DNA of 64,000 bases from Leptotrichia wadei (GTDB lineage: Bacteria; Fusobacteriota; Fusobacteriia; Fusobacteriales; Leptotrichiaceae). The DNA is taken from the NCBI RefSeq assembly GCF_007990545.2, contig NZ_AP019829.2:2046001-2110000 (forward strand). Reading direction: 5' to 3'. Below are positions 1 to 20,542 of the stretch, piece after piece (the stretch's first letter is position 1; each line of letters begins with the position of its first letter). Position numbers and translations under genes: made by a program. Below the pieces are notes generated by a model. The model did not search any database. It had not been told where the DNA came from and was given only the letters and a program-made list of their open reading frames with translations.

Positions 1-1245
1 CTCATTCTGTATTTTTACCATCGCTACATTTCCAGAATGTGCGACTATATCTGCTAAACCTAAAGTCCCAATTGTTGAACTGTCATGATCTCTTACTATT
101 GTATCATATACTTTTATTGAACCTGATGAATATATTTTTGTATTTTTATTAATTGCTTTTGTTTCCAATCCTATTGCAACTGTTATAGGCTTAAATATTG
201 AACCAGGTTCAAAATAATCTGTAATTGGTCTATTTTTTATTTCAGCCTTTTCTTCTGCCTTTGGATACGATGACATTGCGAGTATTTTTCCAGTTTCTAC
301 CTCTATTAAAATTCCCATTGTAGAAGAAGCATTATATTTTACATAAGCATCTTCCAGTTCATCATTAAGAGCATATTGTAAGAAACTGTCAATTGTAAGT
401 ACAAGGTTATCCCCTTCTTCTTCTTTCCTGTCTTCAGATTTCTTTATATTCCCAAGTTTCATAATTCCCTGTAGAGCCTTTGGAATTTTTCTAAGTCCAG
501 TTATAATACCTGTTTTTCCTGAAAGTTCCTTATCATAATATTTTTCAATCCCATAAACACCCTTATTTTCATTATTTACATATCCAATAGTTTCTTGAAA
601 GGCATTATTTTGAATATAATTTCTTGTAAACAATGTTTCAAATGTTACGCCTTTAAATTTTCTTTTATATCCTTCCTTTTTCTTCTCCTTATCCTTTGAA
701 TTTTTAAAATCAGTATCAATTTCCGCTTCAATAGCTATTTTTGTATTATAGGGAATTATATGTTCGACTTTTAGATATTTTTTCTGAATCTGTTTATCTT
801 CTAAATATTCACTTTTATATTTTTCAACTTCCAATTCAGGAATATATTTCTTTAACATTCCTAATACTACATCAATATTTTTCTGTTCAATCAAGCTAGG
901 ATCTAAATTAACAATAAACTTCTCATCGTCATAAGCTAATACTTGTCCATCACTTGTAGCTATTCTTCCTCTTTTAGCCTTTGTAAAACTTAAGGAAGTA
1001 TATTGCTTTTCACCTTGTTTTCTATATTTCTCTCCACCTTTAGTCTGAAGCTGATATACTTTTCCAATTATCATTGCAAATCCTATTGTTGTAAACAATA
1101 CCAAAAGCCCAAATCTCCCCCTAAATGTGTTTAAGTATTTTAACAGTACTTTAAAAAAGCTCTCAACCTTTTGTTCTTTTCTATTTTTTTTCACATTTGA
1201 CTTTGCTCTGTCAATAATATTATCTTTTTTCTTGCCCTCTTTCAT
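1..1245 (-). CDS. Penicillin-binding protein 2 / FtsI-type transpeptidase (partial, C-terminus outside window)
   Basis: This gene encodes a class B penicillin-binding protein, which cross-links peptidoglycan in the periplasm. Only the first 415 codons are in the window. I translated them directly from the minus strand. After a basic cytoplasmic tail there is one membrane anchor at about residues 44-62, followed by the class B motif RGRIATSDG at about 92-100. The transpeptidase domain begins before the window edge. Its active-site SIFK (SxxK) tetrad is at about 349-352 and the SGN motif at about 404-406. The KTG motif would lie beyond position 1. The ATG at 1245 has an AGGAG about 6 bases upstream. 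The gene follows gatB on the same strand with a gap of only 22 bases, so it may be cotranscribed. FtsI-like and PBP2-like members cannot be separated from this fragment. Confidence 0.88.
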   Translation of the reverse strand, partial: MKEGKKKDNIIDRAKSNVKKNRKEQKVESFFKVLLKYLNTFRGRFGLLVLFTTIGFAMIIGKVYQLQTKGGEKYRKQGEKQYTSLSFTKAKRGRIATSDGQVLAYDDEKFIVNLDPSLIEQKNIDVVLGMLKKYIPELEVEKYKSEYLEDKQIQKKYLKVEHIIPYNTKIAIEAEIDTDFKNSKDKEKKKEGYKRKFKGVTFETLFTRNYIQNNAFQETIGYVNNENKGVYGIEKYYDKELSGKTGIITGLRKIPKALQGIMKLGNIKKSEDRKEEEGDNLVLTIDSFLQYALNDELEDAYVKYNASSTMGILIEVETGKILAMSSYPKAEEKAEIKNRPITDYFEPGSIFKPITVAIGLETKAINKNTKIYSSGSIKVYDTIVRDHDSSTIGTLGLADIVAHSGNVAMVKIQNE

Positions 1246-1267
1246 TTTTCTCCTAATTTAACCAATA

Positions 1268-2704
1268 TTAACCTTCAAGTCTAGCTAAAATCATTTCATT
1301 AATCATTTGAGGATTAGCCTTACCTCTAGATAATCTCATCGCTTGCCCAACAAGATATTTTAACGCATTGCTCTTACCATTTTTATAATCTTCCACCGAT
1401 TGTGCATTTTCAGCCAATACTTGCTCAACAATTTTCTCAATCGCACTGTCATCAGTAATTTGAACCAATCCTTTTTCTTTTACAATAATTTCAGGATCTT
1501 TATCTTCTGTCAATAAAATTTCAAATACATCTTTCGCTATTTTTGAGCTAATTGTTTTCGCTTGAATCAATTTAATCAATTTCCCTAAATTTTTTGGCGT
1601 TACATTAAATTTTGAAATCGAAATATTTTTTTCCTTCAACACTCTCAAAACTTCTGTCAACACCCAGTTCGCCGCAAGTCTTGGCTCTTTTGTATCATTT
1701 ACAATTTCTTCGTAATATTCAGCTAATTCTTGTTCCGAAGAAAGTGTTGCAGCTTCCATTTCATGCAATTTATACTCATTTACAAATCTTCTCGCTTTTT
1801 CATCAGCAAATTCTGGCATTTCACCTTTTACTTTTTCAAGTCTATCGTCAGAAATTACAAGTGTAGGCAAATCTGGCTCAGGGAAATATCTGTAATCCAT
1901 CGCTTCCTCTTTGCTTCTCATTGGCTTAGTTACAGCATTTTCCTCATCCCAAAGTCTAGTTTCCTGAACAATTCTTCCACCATTTTCAATCACTTCAATT
2001 TGTCTATTTGTTTCATATTCAATGGCTCTCATAACCGCTTTAAACGAGTTTAAGTTTTTAGTTTCCGTTCTAGTCCCCAATTCTTTTTCACCTTTTTTTC
2101 TAACAGAAACATTCGCATCACATCTAAGCGATCCCAATTCCATACTTACATCACTAACTTTAGTATATTTTAATCTATCCTTCAATGTATTCAAATACGC
2201 ATAAGCCTCTTCAGCATTTTTAATTTCTGGCTTAGAAATAATCTCGATTAACGGTACAGATGCTCTGTTGTAATTCAGCAACGTTTCAGAAGTCGTGTGA
2301 ATACTTTTTGCCGTATCTTCCTCAATTTGAATTCTCTCAATCCCAACAACTGCCTCTTTTCCAGAATTTGTCGTAATTTTCAAAGTACCATTTTCCGCAT
2401 AAGGTTTAAAATATTGCGTAATTTGATAATTTTTTGGTGAATCTGGATAAAAATAATTTTTTCTATCAAATTGACTCTCCTCATTTATTTCACACCCCAA
2501 AGCAAGTGCCGCTTTTATCGCATAATCAAGCACTTTCTCATTCAATTTTGGCAATGCTCCCGGTTGACCAGTACATACTGGACACGCCGATGTATTTGGA
2601 TGTTTGTTATCATAATCGGCATCGCACGAACACCATACTTTTGTTTTTGTTTTTAATTGACAATGCACTTCCAGTCCGATGACTGTTTCATATTCCATAC
2701 TCAT
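1268..2704 (-). CDS. gatB: Asp-tRNA(Asn)/Glu-tRNA(Gln) amidotransferase subunit B
   Basis: GatB is the tRNA-binding and kinase subunit of the GatCAB complex, which converts Glu-tRNA(Gln) and/or Asp-tRNA(Asn) to the amidated forms. The 478-residue length is normal. The N-terminal GatB core is recognisable from VIGLEVHCQL at about 9-18, the Cys-rich patch with CSCD and ACPVCTGQPG near 26-50, and the FYPDSPKNYQITQ block. The C-terminal YqeY-like helical domain ends in SRGKANPQ. The start ATGAGTATG lies behind an A-rich GGAAAA stretch. Unusually, gatB is separated from gatA by a two-gene restriction-modification insertion of about 1.7 kb. The three gat genes are otherwise collinear on the minus strand. 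Confidence 0.97.
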   Translation of the reverse strand: MSMEYETVIGLEVHCQLKTKTKVWCSCDADYDNKHPNTSACPVCTGQPGALPKLNEKVLDYAIKAALALGCEINEESQFDRKNYFYPDSPKNYQITQYFKPYAENGTLKITTNSGKEAVVGIERIQIEEDTAKSIHTTSETLLNYNRASVPLIEIISKPEIKNAEEAYAYLNTLKDRLKYTKVSDVSMELGSLRCDANVSVRKKGEKELGTRTETKNLNSFKAVMRAIEYETNRQIEVIENGGRIVQETRLWDEENAVTKPMRSKEEAMDYRYFPEPDLPTLVISDDRLEKVKGEMPEFADEKARRFVNEYKLHEMEAATLSSEQELAEYYEEIVNDTKEPRLAANWVLTEVLRVLKEKNISISKFNVTPKNLGKLIKLIQAKTISSKIAKDVFEILLTEDKDPEIIVKEKGLVQITDDSAIEKIVEQVLAENAQSVEDYKNGKSNALKYLVGQAMRLSRGKANPQMINEMILARLEG

Positions 2705-2758
2705 TTTCTAATATTTTTCCTTTCTTCTTCAAAATTTTTATTTTTTAAAATCTTTTCG

Positions 2759-3688
2759 TTATTCACTAAATAATTTTAGATGATTTTTATTTTTTAAATT
2801 ATTATCTTTATATTTTTCTAAATAAAGTTTTTCAAATTCCTCAATTTCCAGATTATGATTTTTTAAAAACCAATTTTTATGATTCTCTATATACTCTTTT
2901 CTAAGTTTTTCATCATTTAAATCATTTGGAATCCTTTTCATTCTCTCATCTATGCTATCAAATCCCAAAAAAGGCTCACTTAATCTCTTTTTGGACATTT
3001 CTATATATTCTCGATTAATTTCTATTCCAATTCCTTTTCTGCTTAACTGCTGACAAACTCTCATCGCTGTCCCGCTTCCTAAAAAAGGATCTAATACCGT
3101 ATCATCTTCATTGGATGAAGCAAGTATCATCCTTTCAAATAATGCCTCCGGCTTCTGTGTAGGATGCTTTTTCCTGTTTTTATTACTGTAATGAACATGC
3201 GAAACTTCCCATACATTTCCTGGATTTGCACCTCTTATATTATTTACAGAACGATAATATTTTTGCGGTATTCTTATATCATCTAAATTAAATTTAAATT
3301 TTTTCTTATCTTTTGTAAACATCAAAATATCATCATGTCTAGGAGAAAAACCTCTTGTTTTACCTATTCCTTGTGTATAAAACCAAGTTATCCACGAATT
3401 AAAATACAAATTAAATTCTTTTTCTAACATAACATAAATGTAAGATATATATTTCATTCCCATAAAAATATACAATGTTCCATCATCTTTTAAAATTCTT
3501 ACAGCCTCATTTATCCAAAGCCGTGAAAATTCAAGATACTCATCAAACTCCAAATTATCCTTTGTAAATCCATAATCCTTATTTAAATTATATGGAGGAT
3601 CAGTTACAATTAAATCCACACTCTTATCAGAAAGCTCCTTTAATTTTTCCAAAGCATCTCCCAATATTAATGTTATTCCTTTATCCAT
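2759..3688 (-). CDS. Type II DNA methyltransferase (beta-class, likely N6-adenine)
   Basis: This is a site-specific DNA methyltransferase of 309 residues. Catalytic motif IV, TDPPY, comes first at residues 29-33, and the SAM-binding motif I, DPFLGSGT, comes near residue 200. That order defines the beta class. DPPY rather than SPPY favours adenine-N6 methylation, which is family knowledge rather than proof. Its first 16 bases overlap the end of the upstream nuclease gene (3673-4437), so the pair is translationally linked. It should protect the host against that nuclease. The recognition site cannot be read from the sequence. The pair sits between gatA and gatB. Confidence 0.9.
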   Translation of the reverse strand: MDKGITLILGDALEKLKELSDKSVDLIVTDPPYNLNKDYGFTKDNLEFDEYLEFSRLWINEAVRILKDDGTLYIFMGMKYISYIYVMLEKEFNLYFNSWITWFYTQGIGKTRGFSPRHDDILMFTKDKKKFKFNLDDIRIPQKYYRSVNNIRGANPGNVWEVSHVHYSNKNRKKHPTQKPEALFERMILASSNEDDTVLDPFLGSGTAMRVCQQLSRKGIGIEINREYIEMSKKRLSEPFLGFDSIDERMKRIPNDLNDEKLRKEYIENHKNWFLKNHNLEIEEFEKLYLEKYKDNNLKNKNHLKLFSE

Positions 3689-4437
3689 TTATTTTTCACC
3701 GCTTCCCTATAAAAATCTTCTATAGTCCTGCGACTGCTATTTAAATACTTTTTATCTAACAATTGACACATTTCCCAAGCAGTTCTATATTCATATTCAA
3801 CATAATGTATATCTTTTATTTGAATTTGCCCAGTTCCCAAACTTGGATTATAAGCAATATCTTTTTCACTGACATATTTTAAATCGTAGATATTAAATTC
3901 TGTCAATTCCATTATCCCATTAATTATAGATGTAATAGGATTTTTCTCATTATAAACTTTATGCTTTATAGATAAAATTATAAATATAAAATCAGGATTT
4001 TGGATATATGCTGTCCTTATTCGTGAAAAAGAAGTTATATTTGGCGATTTTCCGCTATTTTTTATATTATTTGAAGTAGCTTTTACATCAATATTTCCTG
4101 TTATTACATTTTTATTTTTCCTAAATTGTAATATTATATCCGACATTCCCAGTCTTTCCTGAGCTTCTACATTTATAAGTCTATATTTATTTTCAGATTC
4201 ATCTCTTATTTCTAAAAATGTCTCAAAAGCCCAAGCCTCAATTAATGGAGCAGCGAATTTATTTATATTTTCCAATGGAAGTCCCATTTTCAAATTGGTT
4301 TTTATTATTATTTTATTATTTCCACTTTCTCTTTTTTCTTCAAAAATCTGCTTTACCGAAGAAATAACAAACTCTGATTCCAATTTATAATTTTCAGATT
4401 CAACCGGCTTTTTCAAATCCAAATCCGTATATTTCAT
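3673..4437 (-). CDS. Putative type II restriction endonuclease, HincII-like PD-(D/E)XK fold
   Basis: This 254-residue protein immediately precedes and overlaps a DNA methyltransferase gene, the classic layout of a type II restriction system. It has a plausible PD-(D/E)XK centre: SDI near residue 123, then DVK about 20 residues later (D...DxK). The segment after DVK, with SPNITSFSRIRTAY, resembles by eye the equivalent part of HincII (DVKT followed by APNIISAYK). The similarity is from memory and short, so the HincII label is an inference. The start has a strong GAGGGGG ribosome-binding site. Insertion between gatA and gatB suggests horizontal acquisition. Confidence 0.75.
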   Translation of the reverse strand: MKYTDLDLKKPVESENYKLESEFVISSVKQIFEEKRESGNNKIIIKTNLKMGLPLENINKFAAPLIEAWAFETFLEIRDESENKYRLINVEAQERLGMSDIILQFRKNKNVITGNIDVKATSNNIKNSGKSPNITSFSRIRTAYIQNPDFIFIILSIKHKVYNEKNPITSIINGIMELTEFNIYDLKYVSEKDIAYNPSLGTGQIQIKDIHYVEYEYRTAWEMCQLLDKKYLNSSRRTIEDFYREAVKNKWIKE

Positions 4438-4459
4438 TTAAACCCCCTCAAAAAAACTT

Positions 4460-5923
4460 TTAAAACTCAGGATATTCAATTTTCCCACGAACACCTTCAA
4501 ATTTATGAGAAATATTAAACAATAAATCTTCTCTAAAATAATTTCCGATTAACTGAATTCCAACAGGAAGTCCATCTACAAATCCAGCAGGTACTGAAAT
4601 TGCAGGAAGCCCCGCCATATTTATTGATACGGTAAAAATATCTCCCAAATACATCTGGACTGGATCAGTAATTTTTTCACCTTTTTTAAATGCTGTAGTT
4701 GGAGAAACTGGTGTTAATAAAACATCTACTTCTTTTAATGCTTTTGAAAAATCATCTCTAATAAGTCTTCTAACTTGTGAAGCCTTTTTGTAATAAGCGT
4801 CATAGAATCCAGAACTTAACACATAGTTTCCAATCATAATTCTTCTTTTTACTTCATCTCCAAAACCTTTTGTTCTTGACTCAACATACATTTTTTCCAC
4901 ATCTTCATTGCTTTCTCTCACACCATATCTTACTCCGTCGTATCTTGACAAGTTTGAAGCAGCTTCAGCCGATGAAATTATGTAATAAGTAGAAATCGCA
5001 TATTTTGAATATGGAAGTGATACTTCTTTAATTTCAGCTCCTAATTCTTTCAATTTTTCCACCGAATCCATTATCACTTTTTTAATATTTTCATCTAATC
5101 CTTCTGCAAAATATTCTTTTGGAATCCCAATTTTCAAGCCTTTCAAGTCATTATTCAAATTTTCCAAATAGTTAGGAACTTCCACATTTACACTTGTCGC
5201 ATCCTTTTCATCATATCCCGCAATTATTTGTAAAAGTCTAGCCAAATCTTCAGTTGATTTTGCCAAAGCTCCAATTTGATCAAGCGAAGATCCAAACGCC
5301 ATAAGCCCGTATCTTGAAACTCTTCCATAAGTCGGCTTAATCCCAACAGTTCCAGTCAAACAAGCAGGTTGCCTAATACTTCCACCAGTATCTGAACCAA
5401 GTGCAATCGGTGCTTGTCCCGCTGCAACCATCGCTGCCGATCCTCCACTGCTTCCACCAGGAACTCTTGTCAAATCCCACGGATTAGAAACTGATTTTAT
5501 CGACGAATTCTCATTTGAAGACCCCATCGCAAACTCATCCATATTAGCCTTCCCAATTATCGGTGTCCCAGCCTTTTTCAATTTTTCCACAACTGTCGCA
5601 TCATAAACTCCCACATAATTTTTAAGAATTTTCGATGCAGCCGTAGTCAAATCCCCTTTTGATACAATATTGTCCTTCAAAGCCACAGGCACTCCAAACA
5701 ACAACTCATTATCATAATTTTTTCTACCTTTTTCATTATTTTCAGAATCATATTTTTTTGCCTCTCCTAAAGCCTTCTCAGGAAACACATTAGAAAATGC
5801 TCCTATTTTTTCTTCAGTTTTCTCAATTCTATCCAAAAAAGATTTTGTCACTTCTTCAGAAGTAATCTCTTTATTTTTTATCATTTCAGCTATTTCACTA
5901 GCCGTTTTTTTGTATAAACTCAT
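4460..5923 (-). CDS. gatA: Asp-tRNA(Asn)/Glu-tRNA(Gln) amidotransferase subunit A
   Basis: GatA is the amidase subunit of GatCAB. It hydrolyses glutamine and passes ammonia to the activated aminoacyl-tRNA on GatB. The 487 residues carry the full amidase signature: the catalytic Lys in VALKDNIV near residue 83, and the GGSSGGSAA and GSDTGGSIRQPA blocks that supply the cis-Ser and nucleophile Ser around residues 155-180. The ATG at 5923 has AAAGGTGG just upstream. It lies downstream of gatC (gap 129 bases), and a restriction gene starts 22 bases after its stop. Length and motifs are intact, so the operon insertion has not damaged it. Confidence 0.97.
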   Translation of the reverse strand: MSLYKKTASEIAEMIKNKEITSEEVTKSFLDRIEKTEEKIGAFSNVFPEKALGEAKKYDSENNEKGRKNYDNELLFGVPVALKDNIVSKGDLTTAASKILKNYVGVYDATVVEKLKKAGTPIIGKANMDEFAMGSSNENSSIKSVSNPWDLTRVPGGSSGGSAAMVAAGQAPIALGSDTGGSIRQPACLTGTVGIKPTYGRVSRYGLMAFGSSLDQIGALAKSTEDLARLLQIIAGYDEKDATSVNVEVPNYLENLNNDLKGLKIGIPKEYFAEGLDENIKKVIMDSVEKLKELGAEIKEVSLPYSKYAISTYYIISSAEAASNLSRYDGVRYGVRESNEDVEKMYVESRTKGFGDEVKRRIMIGNYVLSSGFYDAYYKKASQVRRLIRDDFSKALKEVDVLLTPVSPTTAFKKGEKITDPVQMYLGDIFTVSINMAGLPAISVPAGFVDGLPVGIQLIGNYFREDLLFNISHKFEGVRGKIEYPEF

Positions 5924-6052
5924 TTTTCCACCTTTCTAAATTTTTTCTAAAATGTATCTAAAAATCTCAATTTTTCAAAAAATTTTTTCTCTTCCAATTT
6001 TCAAACTTCTATTCTTCAAAAATTCTACCAATCAGACATTTTTCAATACATC

Positions 6053-6352
6053 CTAATTATCCGCATTTTCTCCCACAACTTTTGGAACAATTATAAATTC
6101 CTCATCGCTATTTGGTGCATTTTCCAAGATTTCTTTCTTAATTCCACTATCCTTAACAATATCTTTTCTCAATACATCCTTCAAATCAAGCACATTAAAA
6201 AGTGGCTCAACCTCACTCGTATCCACACTATTCAACTCTTCCATATGATCAAAAATTTTATTCAAATCCACTCTAAATTTTTCAATTTCATTTTCTGAAA
6301 ATTCCAGCTTTGAAAGTGCTGCTATTTTCAGTACATCTTCTTTGCTTAACAT
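6053..6352 (-). CDS. gatC: Asp-tRNA(Asn)/Glu-tRNA(Gln) amidotransferase subunit C
   Basis: GatC is the small structural subunit that wraps around and stabilises GatA in the amidotransferase complex. The 99-residue protein shows the family pattern: an N-terminal helix with VLKIAALSKLEFSENEIEKF, the central DHMEELNSVDTSEVEPL block at about residues 36-52, and a C-terminal region ending near the VPKVV motif. It is the first gene of the interrupted gatC-gatA-(RM)-gatB cluster, with AAAGGAGG upstream of the ATG. Upstream lies the decaying nuclease patch at 6.4-8.6 kb. Confidence 0.95.
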   Translation of the reverse strand: MLSKEDVLKIAALSKLEFSENEIEKFRVDLNKIFDHMEELNSVDTSEVEPLFNVLDLKDVLRKDIVKDSGIKKEILENAPNSDEEFIIVPKVVGENADN

Positions 6353-6405
6353 TCGCTATTTTCCTCCTTTATTTTTTACATTTCAATAATTAATAAAAAT
6401 ATCTC

Positions 6406-7166
6406 TTAAAAATTAATTCCCTGTAAATTTTTCTTAGTTATTTCATAAAGTTCTACTAATCTGTTGTAACTTAAAAATTTTACTCTATTATTCACTTTTA
6501 AATCTTTAAAAGCTAAGTATCTTATTTTTTTCTCAAATTCCTTTTTTCTGACTTCATCAGCAACAATAAACATTTCTGTATAAAAATCTTGTAAATCATT
6601 ATACTTTAATAGTGAATTTTGTATGTCTGTTGAATGTTCTACTTCAAAAAATGAATGTGGTAATTTTACTTCTTTATCGTCAAAAAATCTATTGTTAAAC
6701 CAAATTACATCAATTGTTGAAGTTCTATTTACTATTTCAGGATAGCTAAATTTTGGAATTTTTTCAAGCGATCTCAAATCACCTAATTTTTTATTAATAA
6801 AATTTTTATTCTTATCTTGATTTGGAATAAAAGTATCCATTTTTTTTAATTTCCAATTTCTAAGAGTAATCCTTGATAGTACGAATGATTAAATTTAATC
6901 ATTTCTTCAGAATTTTTATTTTTTTCATCTTCTTGGATTATTCCTCTTAACTCATTTTCTTTTCTAAATTGCTCTAATCCGTATAATCCTGGCTTTATTT
7001 TATAAATTTCTTTTCTCTGCTGAACAATTCTTCGTATACTAGCAAATGGTGTTTTTGTTTTCCATTCACACTCTTCTATCTTGAAAACTTCATGATTTAA
7101 TTCTCCTAAAGTAGCAACTCCCCCCAATTTTTCAAGTGTTAAAATAACAGCCTCGTATTGTTTCAT
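6406..7166 (-). pseudogene. Frameshifted winged-helix plus PD-(D/E)XK-like nuclease gene
   Basis: Two adjacent reading frames look like halves of one gene. The first (7166-6846, 106 residues) begins like a winged-helix domain (GGVATLGELNHEVFK) and ends YYQGLLLEIGN. The second (6840-6406, 144 residues) starts DTFIPNQDKN and contains IDVIWF followed by SFFEVEHSTDIQNSLLKY, a D...ExE arrangement typical of restriction-endonuclease folds. Adding one T in the AATTAAAA run near 6848 would join them as EIGN-LKK-MDTFIP without other change. Adding bases only to the A run would not remove the stop. The function is probably DNA cleavage or defence, but no family name can be given safely. It may also be two coupled genes, or a sequencing error. 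Confidence 0.6.
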
Positions 7167-7176
7167 TTTTTATCTC

Positions 7177-7380
7177 CTAAAATTCAATCCATTCTGAACA
7201 TTCTTCCCCATCTGTTGTTTCTACAGACATAAGTCTACTTGTAACATTTCCTGGCTCAAGTACAAATTTTCCCTCATAATAATTTTTTTCTGCAATTTCA
7301 AAAGCTTTTCCCGTATTTTCTGCTTCAATTTCAAATTCTCCTGAAACATGCTCTTCTATTACTATTTTAAATTTTTTCAT
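7177..7380 (-). CDS. DpnD/PcfM-like small protein
   Basis: This 67-residue acidic protein has the pattern of the DpnD/PcfM family: MKKFKIVIEE, an EAENTGKAFEIAE helix, NYYEGKFVLEPGNVT, and a C-terminal WIEF. The family is common beside restriction systems and on mobile elements, but its biochemical role is not settled. The gene is intact, starts with ATG, and ends 10 bases before the frameshifted nuclease. A P-loop remnant lies directly upstream. The neighbourhood therefore looks like a defence or mobile-gene cluster that is breaking down around it. Confidence 0.7.
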   Translation of the reverse strand: MKKFKIVIEEHVSGEFEIEAENTGKAFEIAEKNYYEGKFVLEPGNVTSRLMSVETTDGEECSEWIEF

Positions 7381-7420
7381 TTGAAAATCAACTCTCTTTC
7401 CAAATCAGATTCTTCTTAAT

Positions 7421-7540
7421 TTATTCTGAAATTCCTTTAATATCCTCAATAATTGTGCTAAATAAAGTAGATTTTCCTACTCAATTTACTCCTACAAACA
7501 AACAATTTTTTTTATTCGTAGTTCTATTAAATTCCAATTC
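7421..7540 (-). pseudogene. Remnant of a P-loop ATPase/kinase (zeta-toxin-like) with a stop inside Walker A
   Basis: Reading the minus strand from 7540 gives a peptide ending CLFVGVN, then a TGA stop (7481-7483), then VGKSTLFSTIIEDIKG. With Gly in place of the stop (GGA to TGA, one base) this is a normal Walker A loop, GVNGVGKST. The frame ends at another stop at 7421-7423. Only about 40 codons remain, so this is a fragment. The KKNxLFVGVNGxGKSTL style resembles zeta-toxin-like kinases, but the fragment is too short to be certain. Confidence 0.5.
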
Positions 7541-8552
7541 TTATTCCATATCCCCTAATCTTCCCAATTTATCTGAAATATCCACTCTTGGGTTTGTAAT
7601 TTTAGAAGATAACAGTTCTATTAAATTTTCTATATTAATTTCTTTTATCTTAACTCTTTCTTTTTCTTTTATAGATCTTGTTTTTGAATTCCCCCCTTTA
7701 GTTATTATCCAAACTTGTTTTTTAGGCTCTTTTAACGCTATTTCCATTTTTTCAACTCTTATTGTATTTTGATTTATTTGGCTAACATAGTTGTCTATTT
7801 GCATTTCTTTATAATCTTCAAAATCTTCTCTTAAAGTACAATCATACAAAATATCCAGTTCACTATGTTTTAATTATTCCATCAGCTCTCCCAGCTTGTT
7901 TTTTTCTAGAATATTGATATAATTCCACACCTAATAAATTTAATACAAGTGCACAATAATCTTCAAATGTTTCGCCTTTTTTTATTTCATCTAAATTTGT
8001 TTTTAAAACATTGATTATTTCATTAGATGTTTTTTCTATCAAATTATTTCCTGTAATTTTTATTGTTGGAGTTTCATTACTTTTTGAAATTTCTGCTACC
8101 GAAAGAATATATCCATTTTTACTTCTCATAACTTTTAATTTAAAGAAAATTTCCTGATCATTAGTTAATCCATCAAAACTCAATCCATCTAAATAATTAA
8201 TTGGAAAACTAGAATACAATATAAAGGTCCTCTCAAAATTTTCAGGAAATATATGTTTATACTTTCTTCCTTTTTTATCAAGTTTTTTCAAGCTTCTTAT
8301 TTTACCTTTAAGGACTTCATTTTCACTAGGAACTAAATTAATATCATTTGCATATCTTTTTGTATCATCCACTTCATTCGGAACAAAATAAACATAATCT
8401 CCAGCTTTCAAATCTTCAAGTTTAAATCCTTCTGCTAAACTAGCATTTCCAAAAATAAAATTTTTTTCATCTTTTCCATCATTGACAAGCCCATATCCTT
8501 TTTCAACACTTATTTTCTTAATTATTCCGATTGAATATTCTTTTTTCCCCAT
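7541..8552 (-). pseudogene. Frameshifted cold-shock/OB-domain plus nuclease-like gene
   Basis: The first frame runs from the ATG at 8552 (GGAGG 8 bases upstream) to a TAG at 7863-7865. Its N-terminus (GIIKKISVEKGYGLVND...NFIF) resembles a cold-shock/OB domain, and it ends in GETFEDYCALVLNLL...AGRADGIIK. The next frame, down to 7541, continues HSELDILYDCTLREDFEDYKE...QINQN. Deleting one A from the four-base run at 7868-7871 joins them as ADGIIK-HSELDILYDCTL, which looks like the core of a restriction-endonuclease fold. The natural product would be about 336 residues. The exact family is unknown. A longer upstream start at 8612 would overlap acpH and lacks a ribosome-binding site. Confidence 0.6.
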
Positions 8553-8580
8553 TTTATAATCCTCCACATTACAATTTAAA

Positions 8581-9210
8581 TTATGTATTTTTATTAATCT
8601 CAACCAAACCAAATTCCCTTTCTGCTTCTTTCTTCACAAACAAAAACTCTCTCAACGATTTCTCCTCAAATTTACCATAATTCCTTTTCAACTCATCAAT
8701 TGCGCTCCTAAGAATTTCCCCTTTTCTCACTCTTTTCGACATTCCCAGAAAAACTCTCTCCAAAAAATCCAAATTTTTGTATCTTGCCAAAACTTTTTCT
8801 CTCTTCAACCAGTCAAAAAAACTTTTAAAATCACTTGGAAAAAATTCATCATATTTTTCAATATTTTTAATTATTTTTCTTTCAACTTTTTCCACATTCT
8901 CAAAATCAGGATTTTCGCAAAAAATATTCTCAAAATTTTTACATAAAAAATGGTCAACATACATATCCGACACAATCCCTTTAAAAATCCCAAATTTTTC
9001 TCGCAAAATCTCATTCAAAAAATTTTCTTCTCTATCAGAAATTTTATCAATCAATCTATGCAAAATTATCCCATTTTTCAAATTTTCCTGCAAATCAATT
9101 TTATCAACTTTCCCCTTGTAAAAATCTCCAGCAAAATTGCCGTAAAGCGTACTTTCACTCATCTTTTTGTCAATTTCAAGCGATATAACCGAATGAGCTA
9201 AATAATTCAT
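8581..9210 (-). CDS. acpH: Acyl-carrier-protein phosphodiesterase-like protein
   Basis: AcpH removes the 4'-phosphopantetheine group from holo-ACP. The 209-residue length fits. The family pattern is visible: MNYLAHSVIS at the start, GNFAGDFYKG near residues 24-33, then NGIILHRLIDKISD near 46-59 with the conserved His and Asp, and the YVDHFL block near 84-89. These belong to the HD-like metal-binding helical fold of the family. The gene stops only a few bases downstream of its HAD-phosphatase neighbour (9213-9854). The family also contains members of uncertain activity. Confidence 0.8.
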   Translation of the reverse strand: MNYLAHSVISLEIDKKMSESTLYGNFAGDFYKGKVDKIDLQENLKNGIILHRLIDKISDREENFLNEILREKFGIFKGIVSDMYVDHFLCKNFENIFCENPDFENVEKVERKIIKNIEKYDEFFPSDFKSFFDWLKREKVLARYKNLDFLERVFLGMSKRVRKGEILRSAIDELKRNYGKFEEKSLREFLFVKKEAEREFGLVEINKNT

Positions 9211-9212
9211 TT

Positions 9213-9854
9213 TTATCCCTGTTTTTTCAAATAATCCAAAATCTCATCGAAATTCTCAAACTCAAAAAAATCAATCTCATTTTCTTCACAAAACTTAATC
9301 GCTCGAGTTCCAGTTCTAATAAATGAAAAGTCCGCCACTTCAATCGCCCTGTAATCTGAAGGTCCGTCTCCAACGAAATAAACTGTATAACCTTCATCTT
9401 GATACTTCTGAACAGCCTCTTTTTTGTCAACACCGTAATACTGCTCTTTATCTAAGTAAGGAAACGAAACTGTGATTTTATTTCCATCAAATTTAATATC
9501 ATTCGAGATAATTTCTTTTTCATCCAAATTAATTCCATAATTTCTAAGAACGCCTGCAATATTCAATTTCGTTCCAGCACTCACAATTCTAAATTCTATG
9601 CCACTTTTCACAAAATCCACAAATGTCTCATCAATCCCAATCAATTTCAATGTTTCCAAAAACTGTTCTTTCGTAATATTCAAACTCTCAATCCCAGTCT
9701 GCAAATATTCCTTCATCGTAATCTCGCCACTGCGATATTTTTTCCTAATATTCGTCTTTAATTCTGGCTGATGCACCGAAAGTAGTGTATCTGTCGAATC
9801 TTTTTTACTAATTGTAATATCAAAATCTATTAAAAATATTAATTTTTTGCTCAC
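9213..9854 (-). CDS. MtnX-like HAD-IB family phosphatase
   Basis: This is a cytoplasmic HAD-superfamily phosphatase of about 213 residues. Motif I is present as DFDITISKKDSTDTLL near the N-terminus, with the nucleophile and acid/base Asp pair separated by Phe. Motif II Ser/Thr lies in RIVSAGT, and motif III/IV is GDGPSDYRAIEVAD. The arrangement fits the MtnX/SerB-like type, but the substrate is not determined and there are no methionine-salvage genes nearby. I place the start at the GTG at 9854 because AAAGGAG sits 5 bases before it. The ATG at 9875 has no comparable site. Confidence 0.8.
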   Translation of the reverse strand: MSKKLIFLIDFDITISKKDSTDTLLSVHQPELKTNIRKKYRSGEITMKEYLQTGIESLNITKEQFLETLKLIGIDETFVDFVKSGIEFRIVSAGTKLNIAGVLRNYGINLDEKEIISNDIKFDGNKITVSFPYLDKEQYYGVDKKEAVQKYQDEGYTVYFVGDGPSDYRAIEVADFSFIRTGTRAIKFCEENEIDFFEFENFDEILDYLKKQG

Positions 9855-9912
9855 ATTTTCTCCTTTAGCTATCAAAAATACTATTATTTCTCAATTTTTA
9901 ATGACTTTATTT

Positions 9913-15691: not shown

Positions 15692-17410
15692 ATGGATTAT
15701 ATGAAAAAATACGAATATTGGCTAAATTCAGATGCCATTGACGAAAAAGACAGGGAAGAATTGAAAAGCATCGCAGGGAATGAAAAAGAAATAGAAGATA
15801 GATTTTTCAAAGATTTGAGCTTCGGAACTGGTGGAATTCGTGGAGTTCGTGGAATTGGAACTAACAGAATGAATAAATACGTAATTAGAAAGGTAACTCA
15901 AGGACTTGCAAATTATATGCTAAGTTTTGATGAAAAAGCGGCAAAAGAAAAAGGAATCATAATTGCTCATGACTGTAGAATAGGTTCGAGAGAATATGCG
16001 CTAAATACTGCAAGAGTAATGGCTGCAAATGGAATTAAAGCATATATTTATGAAAGTTTACGTTCAACTCCTGAATTGTCATTTGGTGTAAGATATAAAG
16101 GATGTATGTCAGGAATCGTTGTTACGGCTTCTCATAATCCAGCTGAATACAATGGATATAAAGTTTATTGGGATGATGGAGCACAAGTTGTTGATCCACA
16201 TGCACCAGCAATTGTTGAAGAAGTAAATAAAATTTCTACATTGGAAGAAATAAAAGTTATTTCTGAAGAAGAAGGAAGAGAAAAAGGATTAATCATTCAG
16301 CTTGATCATAAAATTGATGATGACTATATAGCAGCAATTAAAAAACAAACTATACATACAGATATTCCAGGAAAAGAAGATTTCAAGATTGTTTATACTC
16401 CGCTTCATGGAACTGGTGGAAGACCAATGAAGAGAATTTTATCTGATTTTGGATACAATTTTGAAGTTGTAAAAGAACAAATTGAACCAGATGGAAACTT
16501 CCCAACTGTAGTTTATGCAAACCCTGAAGAAGTGGCAGCGTTCAAATTGGGAACAAAATTAGGAAACGAAATTGGAGCACAATTAATTTTGGCAAATGAC
16601 CCAGATGCTGATAGAATTGGTATTGCGATAAGAGATGACAAAAATGAATGGTACTATCCAAATGGAAACCAAGTAGGATTGTTGTTATTGCAATATTTAT
16701 TGAATTACAAAAAAGATATTCCAGCTGATGCACAAGTTATTACAACAGTTGTTTCTACACCAATGATTGATGTTGTTGCACCTGCTAAAAATGTTGGAGT
16801 TATGAAAACATTGACTGGATTCAAATACATTGGACAAAAAATTAGACAATTTGAACACAAAGAATTGGAAGGATCATATTTATTTGGATTTGAAGAAAGT
16901 TACGGATATTTGATAGGAACTCATGCAAGAGATAAAGATGCGTTGGTAACTTCAATGGTTATTTCTGAAATGGCAACTTATTACCACTCAAAAGGAACTT
17001 CTATTTACAAAGAATTACAAAAATTATATGAAAAATTTGGATATTATTTAGAAGGAATTAAATCAGTAATGTTAAAAGGTAAAGATGGAATTGAACAAAT
17101 GGCAGCATTAATGTCTAACTTGAGAGAAAATGTTAAAGATGAATTGCTTGGTAAGAAAATTAAAATTAAAAGAGATTTCTTCTCACACAAAGAACATAAC
17201 TTGGAAACTGGTGAAGAAAAAGAAATTAAATTGCCAAAAGAAAATGTATTACAATTCGTGCTTGAAGACAATACATTCATTACAGCAAGACCATCTGGAA
17301 CAGAACCAAAAATCAAATTCTATTTCAGCGTAAATGCAGATTCTAGCGAAAATGTCAAAGCTAAACTTGATAAAACAATGGAAGAATTTTCTAAATTTAT
17401 TGGATTATAA
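15692..17410 (+). CDS. Phosphohexomutase (phosphoglucomutase/phosphomannomutase)
   Basis: The enzyme interconverts hexose-1-phosphate and hexose-6-phosphate, feeding envelope sugar and glycogen metabolism. It has 572 residues, the long form typical of PgcA-like enzymes in low-GC bacteria. Visible motifs are FGTGGIRG near residue 46, the phosphoserine loop TASHNPAEYNGYK near 145, the metal-binding loop DPDADR near 305, the sugar loop GFEESYGYLIG near 405, and the phosphate-binding loop RPSGTEPKIKFY near the C-terminus. The ATG follows AGGAGG. It is the first gene of a plus-strand block and ends before a terminator. Sugar specificity cannot be decided here. Confidence 0.93.
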   Translation: MDYMKKYEYWLNSDAIDEKDREELKSIAGNEKEIEDRFFKDLSFGTGGIRGVRGIGTNRMNKYVIRKVTQGLANYMLSFDEKAAKEKGIIIAHDCRIGSREYALNTARVMAANGIKAYIYESLRSTPELSFGVRYKGCMSGIVVTASHNPAEYNGYKVYWDDGAQVVDPHAPAIVEEVNKISTLEEIKVISEEEGREKGLIIQLDHKIDDDYIAAIKKQTIHTDIPGKEDFKIVYTPLHGTGGRPMKRILSDFGYNFEVVKEQIEPDGNFPTVVYANPEEVAAFKLGTKLGNEIGAQLILANDPDADRIGIAIRDDKNEWYYPNGNQVGLLLLQYLLNYKKDIPADAQVITTVVSTPMIDVVAPAKNVGVMKTLTGFKYIGQKIRQFEHKELEGSYLFGFEESYGYLIGTHARDKDALVTSMVISEMATYYHSKGTSIYKELQKLYEKFGYYLEGIKSVMLKGKDGIEQMAALMSNLRENVKDELLGKKIKIKRDFFSHKEHNLETGEEKEIKLPKENVLQFVLEDNTFITARPSGTEPKIKFYFSVNADSSENVKAKLDKTMEEFSKFIGL

Positions 17411-17512
17411 TTTTTTGAGTAAATATTTTGAGAAATTCGATGATTGAGAGAAAATAAAAATTTTATACAAAGTTTATAAAATTGAGTAAAAATTAAAGTA
17501 AATAAATAGATG

Positions 17513-17560
17513 AAAACAGGGAAATTTCTTGTGATGAGAATGATTTTCCTGTTTTTTTAT
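17513..17560 (+). terminator. Rho-independent terminator after the phosphohexomutase gene
   Basis: An inverted repeat of AACAGGGAAA and TTTTCCTGTT arms (slightly imperfect) is followed directly by a run of seven Ts on the plus strand, about 100 bases after the stop codon. The rest of 17411-17801 is AT-rich, with no other feature I can support. Confidence 0.7.
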
Positions 17561-17801
17561 TTGAAAATTGAAAATATTTTTGATTTATATGAATTCTTAT
17601 GAAAAATAGAGATTGAATTTGTTTTACTTACTTAAAAAATATAAATATTTTTAAAAAATGTATCATAAGTTACACGTCTTGAAGATAAAAATATGATAAA
17701 ATAAAAGAAAGTTTTGTAATCAAATATTTTTTGAATAAAATTAATTTGTAAAAAGATTTTGAACATTGATTAAAAAAATAAAGTATGAGGTGGTGTTTTT
17801 T

Positions 17802-19388
17802 ATGGAAAAAGCGAATATGAAGGATCATTTGAATATAAATTTTGATCTGATTGAAAAAATGACTGAAATTAAGAAAGATTATATAGAGGGAACGGCGGAT
17901 GTTGAAACGACAAAAAGGCGGATAAAGGAAACTTTTAAGGATAAAAAGATAACTCCTGCTGAGTTTGCCTATTCTGAACAGAAAATAAAAGATTTGGGAT
18001 TTGATGATGAGACTGTTCATGATAAAATGAATGATGTGCTTGATTTGTTTGATGAAATTATTGAAAGAGAGAAACCTTCGCTGCCTGAAGGACATCCAAT
18101 AAAAACCTATTTGAGGGAAAATGAGGCGGCTAGAAAACTAATTGCTGAAATGAAGGAAGAACTGAATAAAAAATTTATAAAAAATAGATGGCTGGAGTTT
18201 TACGATAAACTTTATACATTTAATTTGACACATTTGGCTAGAAAACAGCATCAATTATTTTCAATACTTGAAAGTAAAGGATTTGACAGACCGTCTAGAA
18301 TAATGTGGACTTTTGATAATGCAGTCAGGGATAATATAAGTGAGGCTAGAAAGCTTTTAATGGAAGATAAAATGGAAGAATTTTATGCAAAACAGGAAAT
18401 TGCTTTGGAATTGACGTTGGATATAATGCACAAGGAAGAAGAGGTTTTATTTCCGACTTCACTTAAAATGATTACTGAGGAAGAATTTAGAAATATGAGA
18501 AGTGGGGATGATGAGATTGGATATTTCCTGATTGAGAAGCCTAAAGGATTTTTGCCTGAGAAAAAAGAGGAAAAAATTGAAAAAGAGGAAAATGCAAATA
18601 TAAATACGTCTCAAACAGGTAACTTTATGAACGACTTAGCGGGACTTCTTTCAAAATATAATATGAATGCAGGTGGAGAAAAATCTGACGTGTTAGATGT
18701 CAAACAAGGAAAACTTACTTTGGAGCAAATAAACTTGATTTTCCAACATATGCCAGTGGATTTATCTTTTGTGGACGAGAATGAGATTGTTAAGTTTTAT
18801 ACTGATACGAAACATAGAATTTTTCCTAGAAGTGCGGGAGTTATAGGGAGAGATGTTAAAAACTGCCATCCGAGAGAAAGTGTTGCTTCGGTTTTGGAAA
18901 TAATTGACGCATTTAGAAATAATGAACAAGATGAAGTGGATTTCTGGCTTGAAATGAATGGGAGATTTATTTATATCTATTATGTAGCTGTGAGAGATGA
19001 AAATGGTATATTTAAGGGAGTCCTTGAGATGATGCAAGATGTTACGAGAATAAGAAGCCTTGAAGGAAAGAGAACGCTTGTAACTTGGGAAAAACCTAAA
19101 AAATCTGAAATTAATCAGGAAAATCAAAAAAATTCTAAAGAAGATAAAAATCCTTATGGATTAACAGAAAATACAATAATCGGAGAAATAATAGATAAAT
19201 ATCCTTATATAAGAGAATTTATGCCAACATTGTCGCCTACATACAAAAAACTGCTTGATCCAATTCAATATATGATAATGTCTAAAGTTGCAACGCTTGA
19301 TATGATTGCGATGCGTGGTGGATTCCCTCTAGATGAGTTAATAGATAAAATCTCAGATGAAATTAAAAGGCATGAATCTAAAAAATAG
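17802..19388 (+). CDS. DUF438 / hemerythrin / PAS / DUF1858 multidomain protein
   Basis: This is a cytoplasmic sensor-like protein of about 528 residues. By eye the order is a DUF438 domain (about 5-85), a hemerythrin-like HHE four-helix region (about 90-230, with HLARKQHQLF and LDIMHKEEEVLFP supplying His/Glu iron ligands), a low-complexity hinge, a PAS domain (about 320-425), and a C-terminal DUF1858 domain (about 460-525, TIIGEIIDKYPYIREF). Such proteins are thought to sense oxygen, nitric oxide or redox state, but no reaction is established. I use the ATG at 17802 because GAGGTGG precedes it. The in-frame start at 17766 has no such site. It stands 21 bases before exbB. Confidence 0.85.
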   Translation: MEKANMKDHLNINFDLIEKMTEIKKDYIEGTADVETTKRRIKETFKDKKITPAEFAYSEQKIKDLGFDDETVHDKMNDVLDLFDEIIEREKPSLPEGHPIKTYLRENEAARKLIAEMKEELNKKFIKNRWLEFYDKLYTFNLTHLARKQHQLFSILESKGFDRPSRIMWTFDNAVRDNISEARKLLMEDKMEEFYAKQEIALELTLDIMHKEEEVLFPTSLKMITEEEFRNMRSGDDEIGYFLIEKPKGFLPEKKEEKIEKEENANINTSQTGNFMNDLAGLLSKYNMNAGGEKSDVLDVKQGKLTLEQINLIFQHMPVDLSFVDENEIVKFYTDTKHRIFPRSAGVIGRDVKNCHPRESVASVLEIIDAFRNNEQDEVDFWLEMNGRFIYIYYVAVRDENGIFKGVLEMMQDVTRIRSLEGKRTLVTWEKPKKSEINQENQKNSKEDKNPYGLTENTIIGEIIDKYPYIREFMPTLSPTYKKLLDPIQYMIMSKVATLDMIAMRGGFPLDELIDKISDEIKRHESKK

Positions 19389-19409
19389 TTTTATGGAAAG
19401 GAAAAATTA

Positions 19410-20036
19410 ATGTTGCTACACTATTTTATTTCAGGTGGAATATTTATGTGGGGAATACTGGCGGCTTCAATTTGCGGAGTCGCAGTAATTTTGGAAAAAT
19501 TATGGGTTTTTTTTACAATGGAAAAAGATTTTACAAAAGAGTATAGAAAAGAGCTGTATAAGGCATTGCAAACAAAGAGTAAAGAGGAAGTTATTAAGAT
19601 TACAAACTCAAAAAGAGATTCAGTTTCTAGAATTATTACAAAAACAATGGAAAATATAGATTTGGATTTAAATAAAATTGAGGAATCAGAGAAGGAATAT
19701 CTTGAGGAAATAATAAGAGAAGCTGTTTTGGCACAGACAGGAAAACTGGAAAAAGGGATGTGGCTTCTTGGGGCAGTAGTAAATACAGCACCTCAGTTGG
19801 GGCTTCTTGGAACAGTTACTGGAATGATAACATCATTTTCGGCATTATCTGCAAGTGTGGAAAGTTCTAAAACAGTTGCAGCAGGAATATCAGAGGCTCT
19901 GTACACTACGGCGTTTGGTCTAATTGTGGCGATACCTACTTTAATCTTTTACAATTACTTTAATAGAAGAATAGATGCGACAGCGTTGGAAATGGAGAGA
20001 GCGGCTTTGCATATTATGGGAAGAGTGAAAAAATAG
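19410..20036 (+). CDS. exbB: MotA/TolQ/ExbB proton channel protein
   Basis: ExbB forms the inner-membrane proton channel that, with ExbD, energises TonB. The 208-residue protein has an N-terminal membrane segment at about 10-30, a charged cytoplasmic loop, and two later membrane helices. The family motif GAVVNTAPQLGLLGTVTGMITSF is at about 130-152 and AAGISEALYTTAFGLIVAIPTLI at about 166-188. It starts 21 bases after the DUF438 gene and is followed by exbD 28 bases on. Gene order exbB-exbD-receptor-tonB supports a single TonB energy-transduction unit rather than Tol-Pal or flagellar MotA. Confidence 0.93.
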   Translation: MLLHYFISGGIFMWGILAASICGVAVILEKLWVFFTMEKDFTKEYRKELYKALQTKSKEEVIKITNSKRDSVSRIITKTMENIDLDLNKIEESEKEYLEEIIREAVLAQTGKLEKGMWLLGAVVNTAPQLGLLGTVTGMITSFSALSASVESSKTVAAGISEALYTTAFGLIVAIPTLIFYNYFNRRIDATALEMERAALHIMGRVKK

Positions 20037-20064
20037 AATTATAAAGTATTGAAGGGAATAAAAA

Positions 20065-20484
20065 ATGAAATTTTCTAATAGAAGAAATAGGCAGAATGCG
20101 GAAATATCAATGCTTAATCTTATTGATGTCATATTTATGTTATTAATATTTTTTATGATTGCCACGACATTTAATAAATATTCACAATTTCAGCTTTCTA
20201 TTCCTAAATCGGATGCTAAATTTGATAAAAAAGAGGAGACGAAGGCAGAAATAATAGTTAATAGAGAGAAAAAATATTTTTTGAAGTTAGGAAACAATGT
20301 TAAAGAAATTTCGGGAGAGAATATTCATAATGAGATTTTGAGATTGCCAAAAGAGATGCTTGAAAATATGACATTGACGGCTGATGAGCATCTTGAATAT
20401 GGATATATTGTAGAAATAATGTCGAAATTACGTAATGAGAATGTAAAAAATGTTAGTCTTAATATACAAAAAAATGATAAATAA
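20065..20484 (+). CDS. exbD: ExbD/TolR family biopolymer transport protein
   Basis: ExbD is the partner of ExbB in the proton channel that drives TonB. The 139-residue protein has a short cytoplasmic N-terminus, one transmembrane helix at about 13-36 (NLIDVIFMLLIFFMIATTF) carrying the conserved Asp, and a periplasmic domain of about 100 residues. The length is normal. The ATG follows GAAGGGAATA. It lies between exbB and a TonB-dependent receptor in one plus-strand run. Confidence 0.93.
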   Translation: MKFSNRRNRQNAEISMLNLIDVIFMLLIFFMIATTFNKYSQFQLSIPKSDAKFDKKEETKAEIIVNREKKYFLKLGNNVKEISGENIHNEILRLPKEMLENMTLTADEHLEYGYIVEIMSKLRNENVKNVSLNIQKNDK

Positions 20485-20542
20485 TAAATATTAATTTTAA
20501 GAAAAGGAGAGCGTGACAGATATATATAATTGTCATGCGGGA

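Follow-up and report, generated by a model that had tools for sequence, protein, structure and literature searches.

A Type II restriction-modification cassette of Leptotrichia wadei occupies a recurrent slot between gatA and gatB, where cargo is probably swapped by recombination through the flanking gat arms and expressed from the surrounding operon. Across related species the slot contains varied co-directional genes or is empty, and the adjacent gat genes are mosaic, with identity breakpoints. The gatA-gatB gap is thus a variable cargo slot, and the restriction-modification pair is one occupant of several. The pair is of an ordinary type; the slot is the interesting part. The initial annotation had proposed that the pair was inserted into the gatCAB cluster. 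The insertion is supported by the comparisons below, while the slot shared by several cargos and the recombination of gat between species had been missed. The whole stretch of DNA analysed, 64,000 nt in length, is referred to as the window.

The restriction-modification pair and its gat arms

The five genes lie on the minus strand in the order gatC (6053..6352), gatA (4460..5923), restriction endonuclease (3673..4437), methyltransferase (2759..3688), and gatB (1268..2704). All three gat genes score above their NCBIfam cut-offs (gatC, TIGR00135, 92.6 bits, cut-off 47.1; gatA, TIGR00132, 631.5 bits, cut-off 481.1; gatB, NF004012, 671.4 bits, cut-off 338) and are full by length and score, in agreement with the earlier description of them as intact and collinear. 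gatA and gatB form the upstream and downstream conserved arms of the slot, respectively. The nuclease and methyltransferase genes overlap by 16 nt, and their positions, strand, and families confirm the overlapping nuclease and adenine methyltransferase genes annotated there. The junction from the gatA stop to the nuclease start (4438..4459, minus strand) is 22 bp long, contains a G-rich stretch resembling a ribosome-binding site, and is too short for a full promoter. The junction from the methyltransferase stop to the gatB start (2705..2758, minus strand) is 54 bp long, and its end matches the sequence around the gatB ribosome-binding site at empty sites. The gatC-gatA gap (5924..6052, minus strand; 129 bp) is a second cargo slot, empty in the window.

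The nuclease matches the PADLOC Type II restriction endonuclease model PDLC03492 over residues 1–254 of 254, with 378.9 bits. Pfam and NCBIfam gave no match at E 0.01, sequence searches of the PDB gave one chance-level match each and none of use, no phage match was found, and the search of plasmids gave a single match, on an Acinetobacter junii plasmid (56%). In an alignment of 32 homologues (30 of the 36 outside loci described below, the window, and G006, a genome of the same genus), D100, D117, and K119 are invariant in 32/32. An AlphaFold2 model made from 31 of these sequences, with G006 left out, has a mean pLDDT of 90.7 and a pTM of 0.88. Its best match in the PDB is R.SwaI (5tgq, 5tgx; Foldseek E 5.7e-9, TM 0.62–0.70), which aligns with a VIA-align Z of 18.7 at 3.2 Å over 194 residues. 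The next folds by Z are HincII (11.7–13.7), EcoRV (9.0–10.7), and NlaIV (10.5); the NlaIV match is at the EcoRV level and was not taken as relatedness. The nuclease is thus predicted to have a SwaI/HincII/EcoRV-like fold and presumably cleaves DNA. It resembles R.SwaI in fold, with D...DxK-type residues invariant in its own family, but is only 17–19% identical to it, so that the recognition site is not transferable.

Recognition-site avoidance was assessed by palindrome counts against Markov expectation in the window and by comparison of the two carriers (140,704 nt) with non-carriers (467,225 nt); no word stands out in either. Among the many words tested, GATATC and GTTAAC are avoided in carriers and non-carriers alike, with slightly stronger avoidance in carriers (ratios of 0.66 and 0.49). 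The SwaI site is ATTTAAAT. It is not avoided, being present 25 times against 24.0 expected.

The methyltransferase matches PF01555 with 233 bits and PDLC03299 with 311.9 bits. In an alignment of 20 sequences (18 of the 36 outside loci, the window, and G006), DPPYNL ahead of FxGSGT is among the invariant columns, an order that we take to mark a beta-class methyltransferase, here N6-adenine-specific. At the level of adjacency and family the pair is of Type II, with adjacent nuclease and methyltransferase genes and a nuclease that combines a predicted nuclease fold with conserved acidic and lysine residues.

Relatives of the nuclease are encoded on 36 contigs of other taxa, from varied phyla, and a methyltransferase homologue lies directly downstream in 36/36, so the pairing is not due to chance. 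The nuclease is split or short at its 5' end in six of the 36 loci, and in a few loci one or the other gene is split or short. The window pair shares with this PDLC03492 family the full-length match and the order of nuclease then beta-class methyltransferase, but differs in its surroundings: gatA, gatB, or gatC was found in none of the 36 loci, in flanks of up to 6 kb. An upstream ORF (mechanically called) is in view in 34 loci; it is co-directional with the cassette in 21, and within 60 bp of it in 10 of the 21. Eleven neighbouring genes, picked by eye from seven of these 34 loci, were scanned. They are tgt upstream and yajC downstream (L074); a TatD-family gene and, below cut-off, an exopolyphosphatase-like gene (L077); trpS and, below cut-off, an scpA-like gene (L084); a ZapA-like gene and rplI, for ribosomal protein L9 (L073); hemC (L087); and gyrB- and metH-like genes below full-length cut-offs (L088 and L098, respectively). 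Since these neighbours differ from locus to locus, the same pair occupies varied housekeeping neighbourhoods. Such placement hints that the cassette may habitually ride in host operons.

Cargo slots at the gat locus in related genomes

Among 33 genomes of the family, gatA is present in 33/33, and gatB is its neighbour in the window and in all 32 retrieved loci; in G004 the contig ends within gatB. Only two of the 33 encode the nuclease, namely G000, from which the window comes, and G006, and in both it sits between gatA and gatB. Thus, the pair is not carried at this site by all relatives, the case that would have marked it as ancestral. The empty-site comparison proposed at the outset was made on 19 close relatives, namely the window's own genome, 12 genomes of the same genus, and G002, G003, G017, G020, G021, and G022. 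The gap is empty in eight of them (61–125 bp), sister species included, which supports insertion of the pair, and filled in 11 (465–2593 bp).

Six kinds of cargo, besides the empty state, occur in these 19 genomes, each from a different species. Specifically, the nuclease-methyltransferase pair is found in G000 and G006, a C5-methyltransferase with an HNH gene in G017, a lone HNH gene in G002 with a decayed copy in G009, a DUF4431 protein in G010, DUF3829-like lipoproteins in G020, G008, and G007, and a GNAT protein in G022 with a decayed copy in G021. The DUF3829-like assignment comes from a scan of the G020 protein, with which the G007 and G008 lipoproteins cluster. In G008 the lipoprotein cargo consists of three ORFs, of which two seem to be fragments of a single gene; the two ORFs in G007 seem to be one split gene. 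All 15 cargo ORFs of at least 90 aa, in nine genomes, are co-directional with gat, some being pieces of split lipoprotein genes, and the first cargo ORF starts 11–49 nt past gatA. No integrase or transposase was found among the scanned cargos (window, G017, G002, G010, G020, and G022); the cargos of G006, G007, and G008 clustered with scanned ones, and the decayed copies in G009 and G021 stood outside the scan. The earlier suggestion that residence in an essential operon could stabilise the pair is doubtful as a rule, because the content of the slot changes between relatives, cargo has decayed in G009 and G021, and ORFs are split in G007 and G008.

The remaining 14 genomes of the family all have a gatA-gatB gap of at most 31 bp. 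Outside the family, 65 genomes were sampled; four lack a gatA-gatB pair on one contig and three contain second copies, leaving 64 pairs in 61 genomes with a median gap of 30 bp and two gaps of at least 300 bp. In G095, of another family, the gap contains a co-directional gene for an ECF-transporter S component (L118, 2661-3221), so the gap takes unrelated cargo there too. In G088 the gap is 385 bp long and has no ORF of its own of at least 50 aa.

Cargo is also present on both sides of gatC. The gatC-gatA gap contains a DUF4253-type ORF of 248–253 aa in 4 of the 19 close relatives (G006, G008, G015, and G017; the G006 member was scanned). A third cargo region extends from a HAD-like gene (9213-9875) to gatC (6353..9212, minus strand). 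In the window it comprises an ACP phosphodiesterase-like ORF (8581-9210), a pair of ORFs (7541-7849 and 7863-8612) corresponding to a single 356-aa ORF in G014 with a weak, below-cut-off cold-shock match, a DpnD/PcfM-like ORF (7177-7380), and another pair (6406-6840 and 6846-7166) that forms a single 253-aa ORF in G010 and G014 and has weak restriction endonuclease and AbiEi matches. Of 18 close relatives, 13 have a c9-gatC gap longer than 1 kb; G015, with neither rsuA nor c9 called, yields no value. The cargo of this gap includes a MutH-domain restriction endonuclease with a C5-methyltransferase in G006 and G017, the endonuclease as two ORFs in G007, and in G016 a fused Dam-DpnII protein with a second methyltransferase directly upstream of gatC (L034, 5381-7921), of which G005 has a shorter form. 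Other cargo there is a zeta-toxin-like protein and a gene weakly resembling restriction endonucleases and AbiEi. Separately, an IS605 OrfB/TnpB-like gene (OrfB_IS605) lies upstream of gatC in G002 (L038, 10398-11492).

Mosaic gat genes and alternative explanations

Protein identity to the window changes sharply along the locus. For G002, of another genus, it is 80% for mreB, 60% for scpB, 82% for rsuA, 93% for c9, 97% for gatC, 96% for gatA, 99% for gatB, and 44% for pbp; for G006, of the same genus, the corresponding values are 90, 73, 95, 66, 89, 82, 89, and 64%. At the nucleotide level, identity rises in a step around c9 and falls again where gatB ends. In the last gatB window identity is 68–73% for G010, G012, and G014 and 85% for G002, and the gatB tract shared by G010, G012, and G014 ends within the last ~120 nt of the gene. 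The last ~240 nt of gatA are likewise mosaic among relatives: in the last two windows G010, G011, and G012 match G000 (95–99%), and G016 and G014 (84%, then 93–94%) and G002 (83%, then 77%) differ from it. The G006 gatA is 83–88% identical to its own clade in the window from nt 1342, against 87–100% in the ten windows before nt 1220; in the window preceding that from nt 1342 it is 84–85% identical to G007 and G009 and 96–100% to the other four. The penicillin-binding-like gene that follows gatB (1-1245 of the window, recognised by eye) is itself very divergent, at 44–51% to G002, G010, G012, and G014. Beyond it, G010, G012, and G014 (L033, L036, and L037) carry other genes than the rest; gat is thus not the only part that varies.

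The tree of flank genes and that of gat genes are in strong conflict, each rejecting the clade of the other (AU p 3.7e-57 and 7.1e-5), the clades having been picked after the data tables were seen. Mosaicism of gat between species and genera, together with breakpoints near the slot, suggests homologous recombination.

The alternative that comes closest, although we favour it less, is that a single entry of the pair between gatA and gatB, in a common ancestor, was followed by its loss or replacement in most descendants, with no need for a recent swap. The window and G006 methyltransferases are indeed sisters among 20 (SH-aLRT 100), the nucleases group together with a support of 91 that is not starred, and both pairs occupy the same site; per nucleotide window the two pairs are 73–91% identical, about as gatA and gatB are between the two gat clades. 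Against swapping, the proteins differ by 25% for the nuclease and 10% for the methyltransferase, and gatA is 77% identical in its last nucleotide window; with this divergence of the pairs and of the gatA ends, no recent transfer between these two genomes is seen. A single entry has to contend, however, with carriers that are each nested among non-carriers in both the flank and the gat tree, with six cargo kinds whose states require nine changes on either tree (22 rows), and with the mosaic gatA ends beside the slot.

A somewhat less probable explanation is that recombination between species is general, gat being one exchanged core region among many and the cargo neutral baggage. A control region speaks for it and rules out gat exchange as unique: PGM is 98–100% alike in G002, G010, G012, and G014, and the block from PGM onward (15692-22627) is 99–100% identical in G010 and 87–98% in G002, where the genes adjoining PGM are at 87–96%. 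Other genes of these genomes are about 80–90% alike, so gat is not the sole exchanged region. By eye, the block runs from PGM to a TonB-receptor-like ORF. Among 22 reciprocal best pairs of the window and G010, nine reach at least 95%: five belong to the PGM block, and the rest are gatA, gatB, and two ORFs that lie upstream of gatC. Among the 22 with G002, which have a median of 84.7%, four do (gatA, gatB, PGM, and a 704-aa ORF at 20513). A means of general exchange may exist as well, since comEC (PF03772), present in 18 of the 19 close relatives, is suggestive of natural transformation.

Against general exchange, Tgt (86–89%) and RNase R (76–81%) diverge at background level in G002, G010, G012, and G014; the G010 RNase R is in two pieces. 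Insertions within the syntenic block also concentrate at the three gat-side gaps, whereas the other called gaps, in ftsK-mreB-scpB-rsuA-c9 and gatB-pbp, are at most 273 bp among the 19 relatives (rsuA and c9 uncalled in G015); larger gaps occur outside the 19 or beyond pbp (mreB-scpB, 417 in G024; priA-def, 637 in G022). Finally, 7 of 55 methyltransferase hits of at least 60 bits fall at gat, against 0.24 expected for a 10-kb region, a post hoc comparison of hits that are not phylogenetically independent. The count was made by hand and leaves out a gat-side hit of 56.3 bits in G016.

Homing, in which cargo nucleases (HNH in G002/G009, HNH in G017, and the restriction endonuclease) cut cargo-free alleles and are copied in, is very improbable: an intact nuclease gene in 4 of the 11 filled slots, a decayed one in another, and breakpoints adjoining the slot would fit it, but 6 of the 11 have no recognisable nuclease (lipoprotein, DUF4431, or GNAT cargo) and Type II restriction endonucleases paired with a methyltransferase are not known to home.

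Expression of the cassette and comparison with known systems

In the reading that we prefer, exchange through the gat arms, chromosomal DNA of another species would recombine via conserved gatA and gatB, and the stretch between them would be exchanged without a mobile element of its own. Natural transformation is a possible route for such DNA, given comEC in 18 of the 19 close relatives. The cassette would then be transcribed from the gat operon and translated via its own ribosome-binding site, and the nuclease would cut unmodified incoming DNA at a site protected in the host by the methyltransferase.

Co-transcription with the gat operon, as proposed in the initial annotation, is plausible from the sequence, with junctions of 22 and 54 bp on either side of the pair. 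Three terminator-like sites occur at 1200-6700, all on the strand opposite to the gat genes. Promoter-like words are more numerous than expected (39 on both strands, against 25.9 with an sd of 5.4), which leaves room for an internal promoter. Two words matching 10 of 12 positions lie inside the nuclease gene on the strand that fits methyltransferase expression. The end of one falls in the codons of the invariant residues Y196-N197, so this word is indistinguishable from coding constraint. For the other, at 3950-3923, coding constraint at Y196-N197 is no explanation, and it may be a dedicated methyltransferase promoter.

If exchange through the arms is correct, the locus would be a PCR-sized place to watch restriction-cassette swapping in an essential operon outside Neisseria, and gatA and gatB, universal in the family, could mislead phylogenies of these bacteria. 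More speculatively, and we consider it doubtful, the gat locus could be a three-slot, promoterless dock for defence cassettes with the essential GatCAB genes as homology arms, in which selection on restriction cargo spread near-identical gatCAB across species and genus borders with the translation genes hitchhiking.

According to one report, restriction-modification regions that have been acquired tend to be small and may depend on small integration hotspots or on transformation (PMC4176335). According to another, NlaIV restriction in meningococci lowers transformation by partly heterologous plasmids and not by a homologous rpoB fragment (PMC3388099). Titles and abstract openings among the matches listed in the open-access literature on gatCAB, Leptotrichia, and minimal mobile elements contain no description of a gat slot.

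The neisserial genes pheS and pheT are translation genes. A Type II restriction-modification system has been named at Neisseria pheS/pheT (PMC3082526), and the gat slot is similar in that restriction-modification cassettes lie between two translation genes. In minimal mobile elements, as defined in two papers, two conserved genes flank different whole-gene cassettes that are incorporated by homologous recombination (PMC3082526, PMC3898611). At gat, two conserved genes likewise enclose different whole-gene cassettes, in different species rather than strains. The gat slot differs from the Neisseria elements in its host phylum (Fusobacteriota), its operon, and its three neighbouring slots, and in that exchange is seen across species and genus codes, with one genome per species. 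By analogy, the gat slot resembles the minimal mobile elements of Neisseria and would be a fresh instance of a known pattern.
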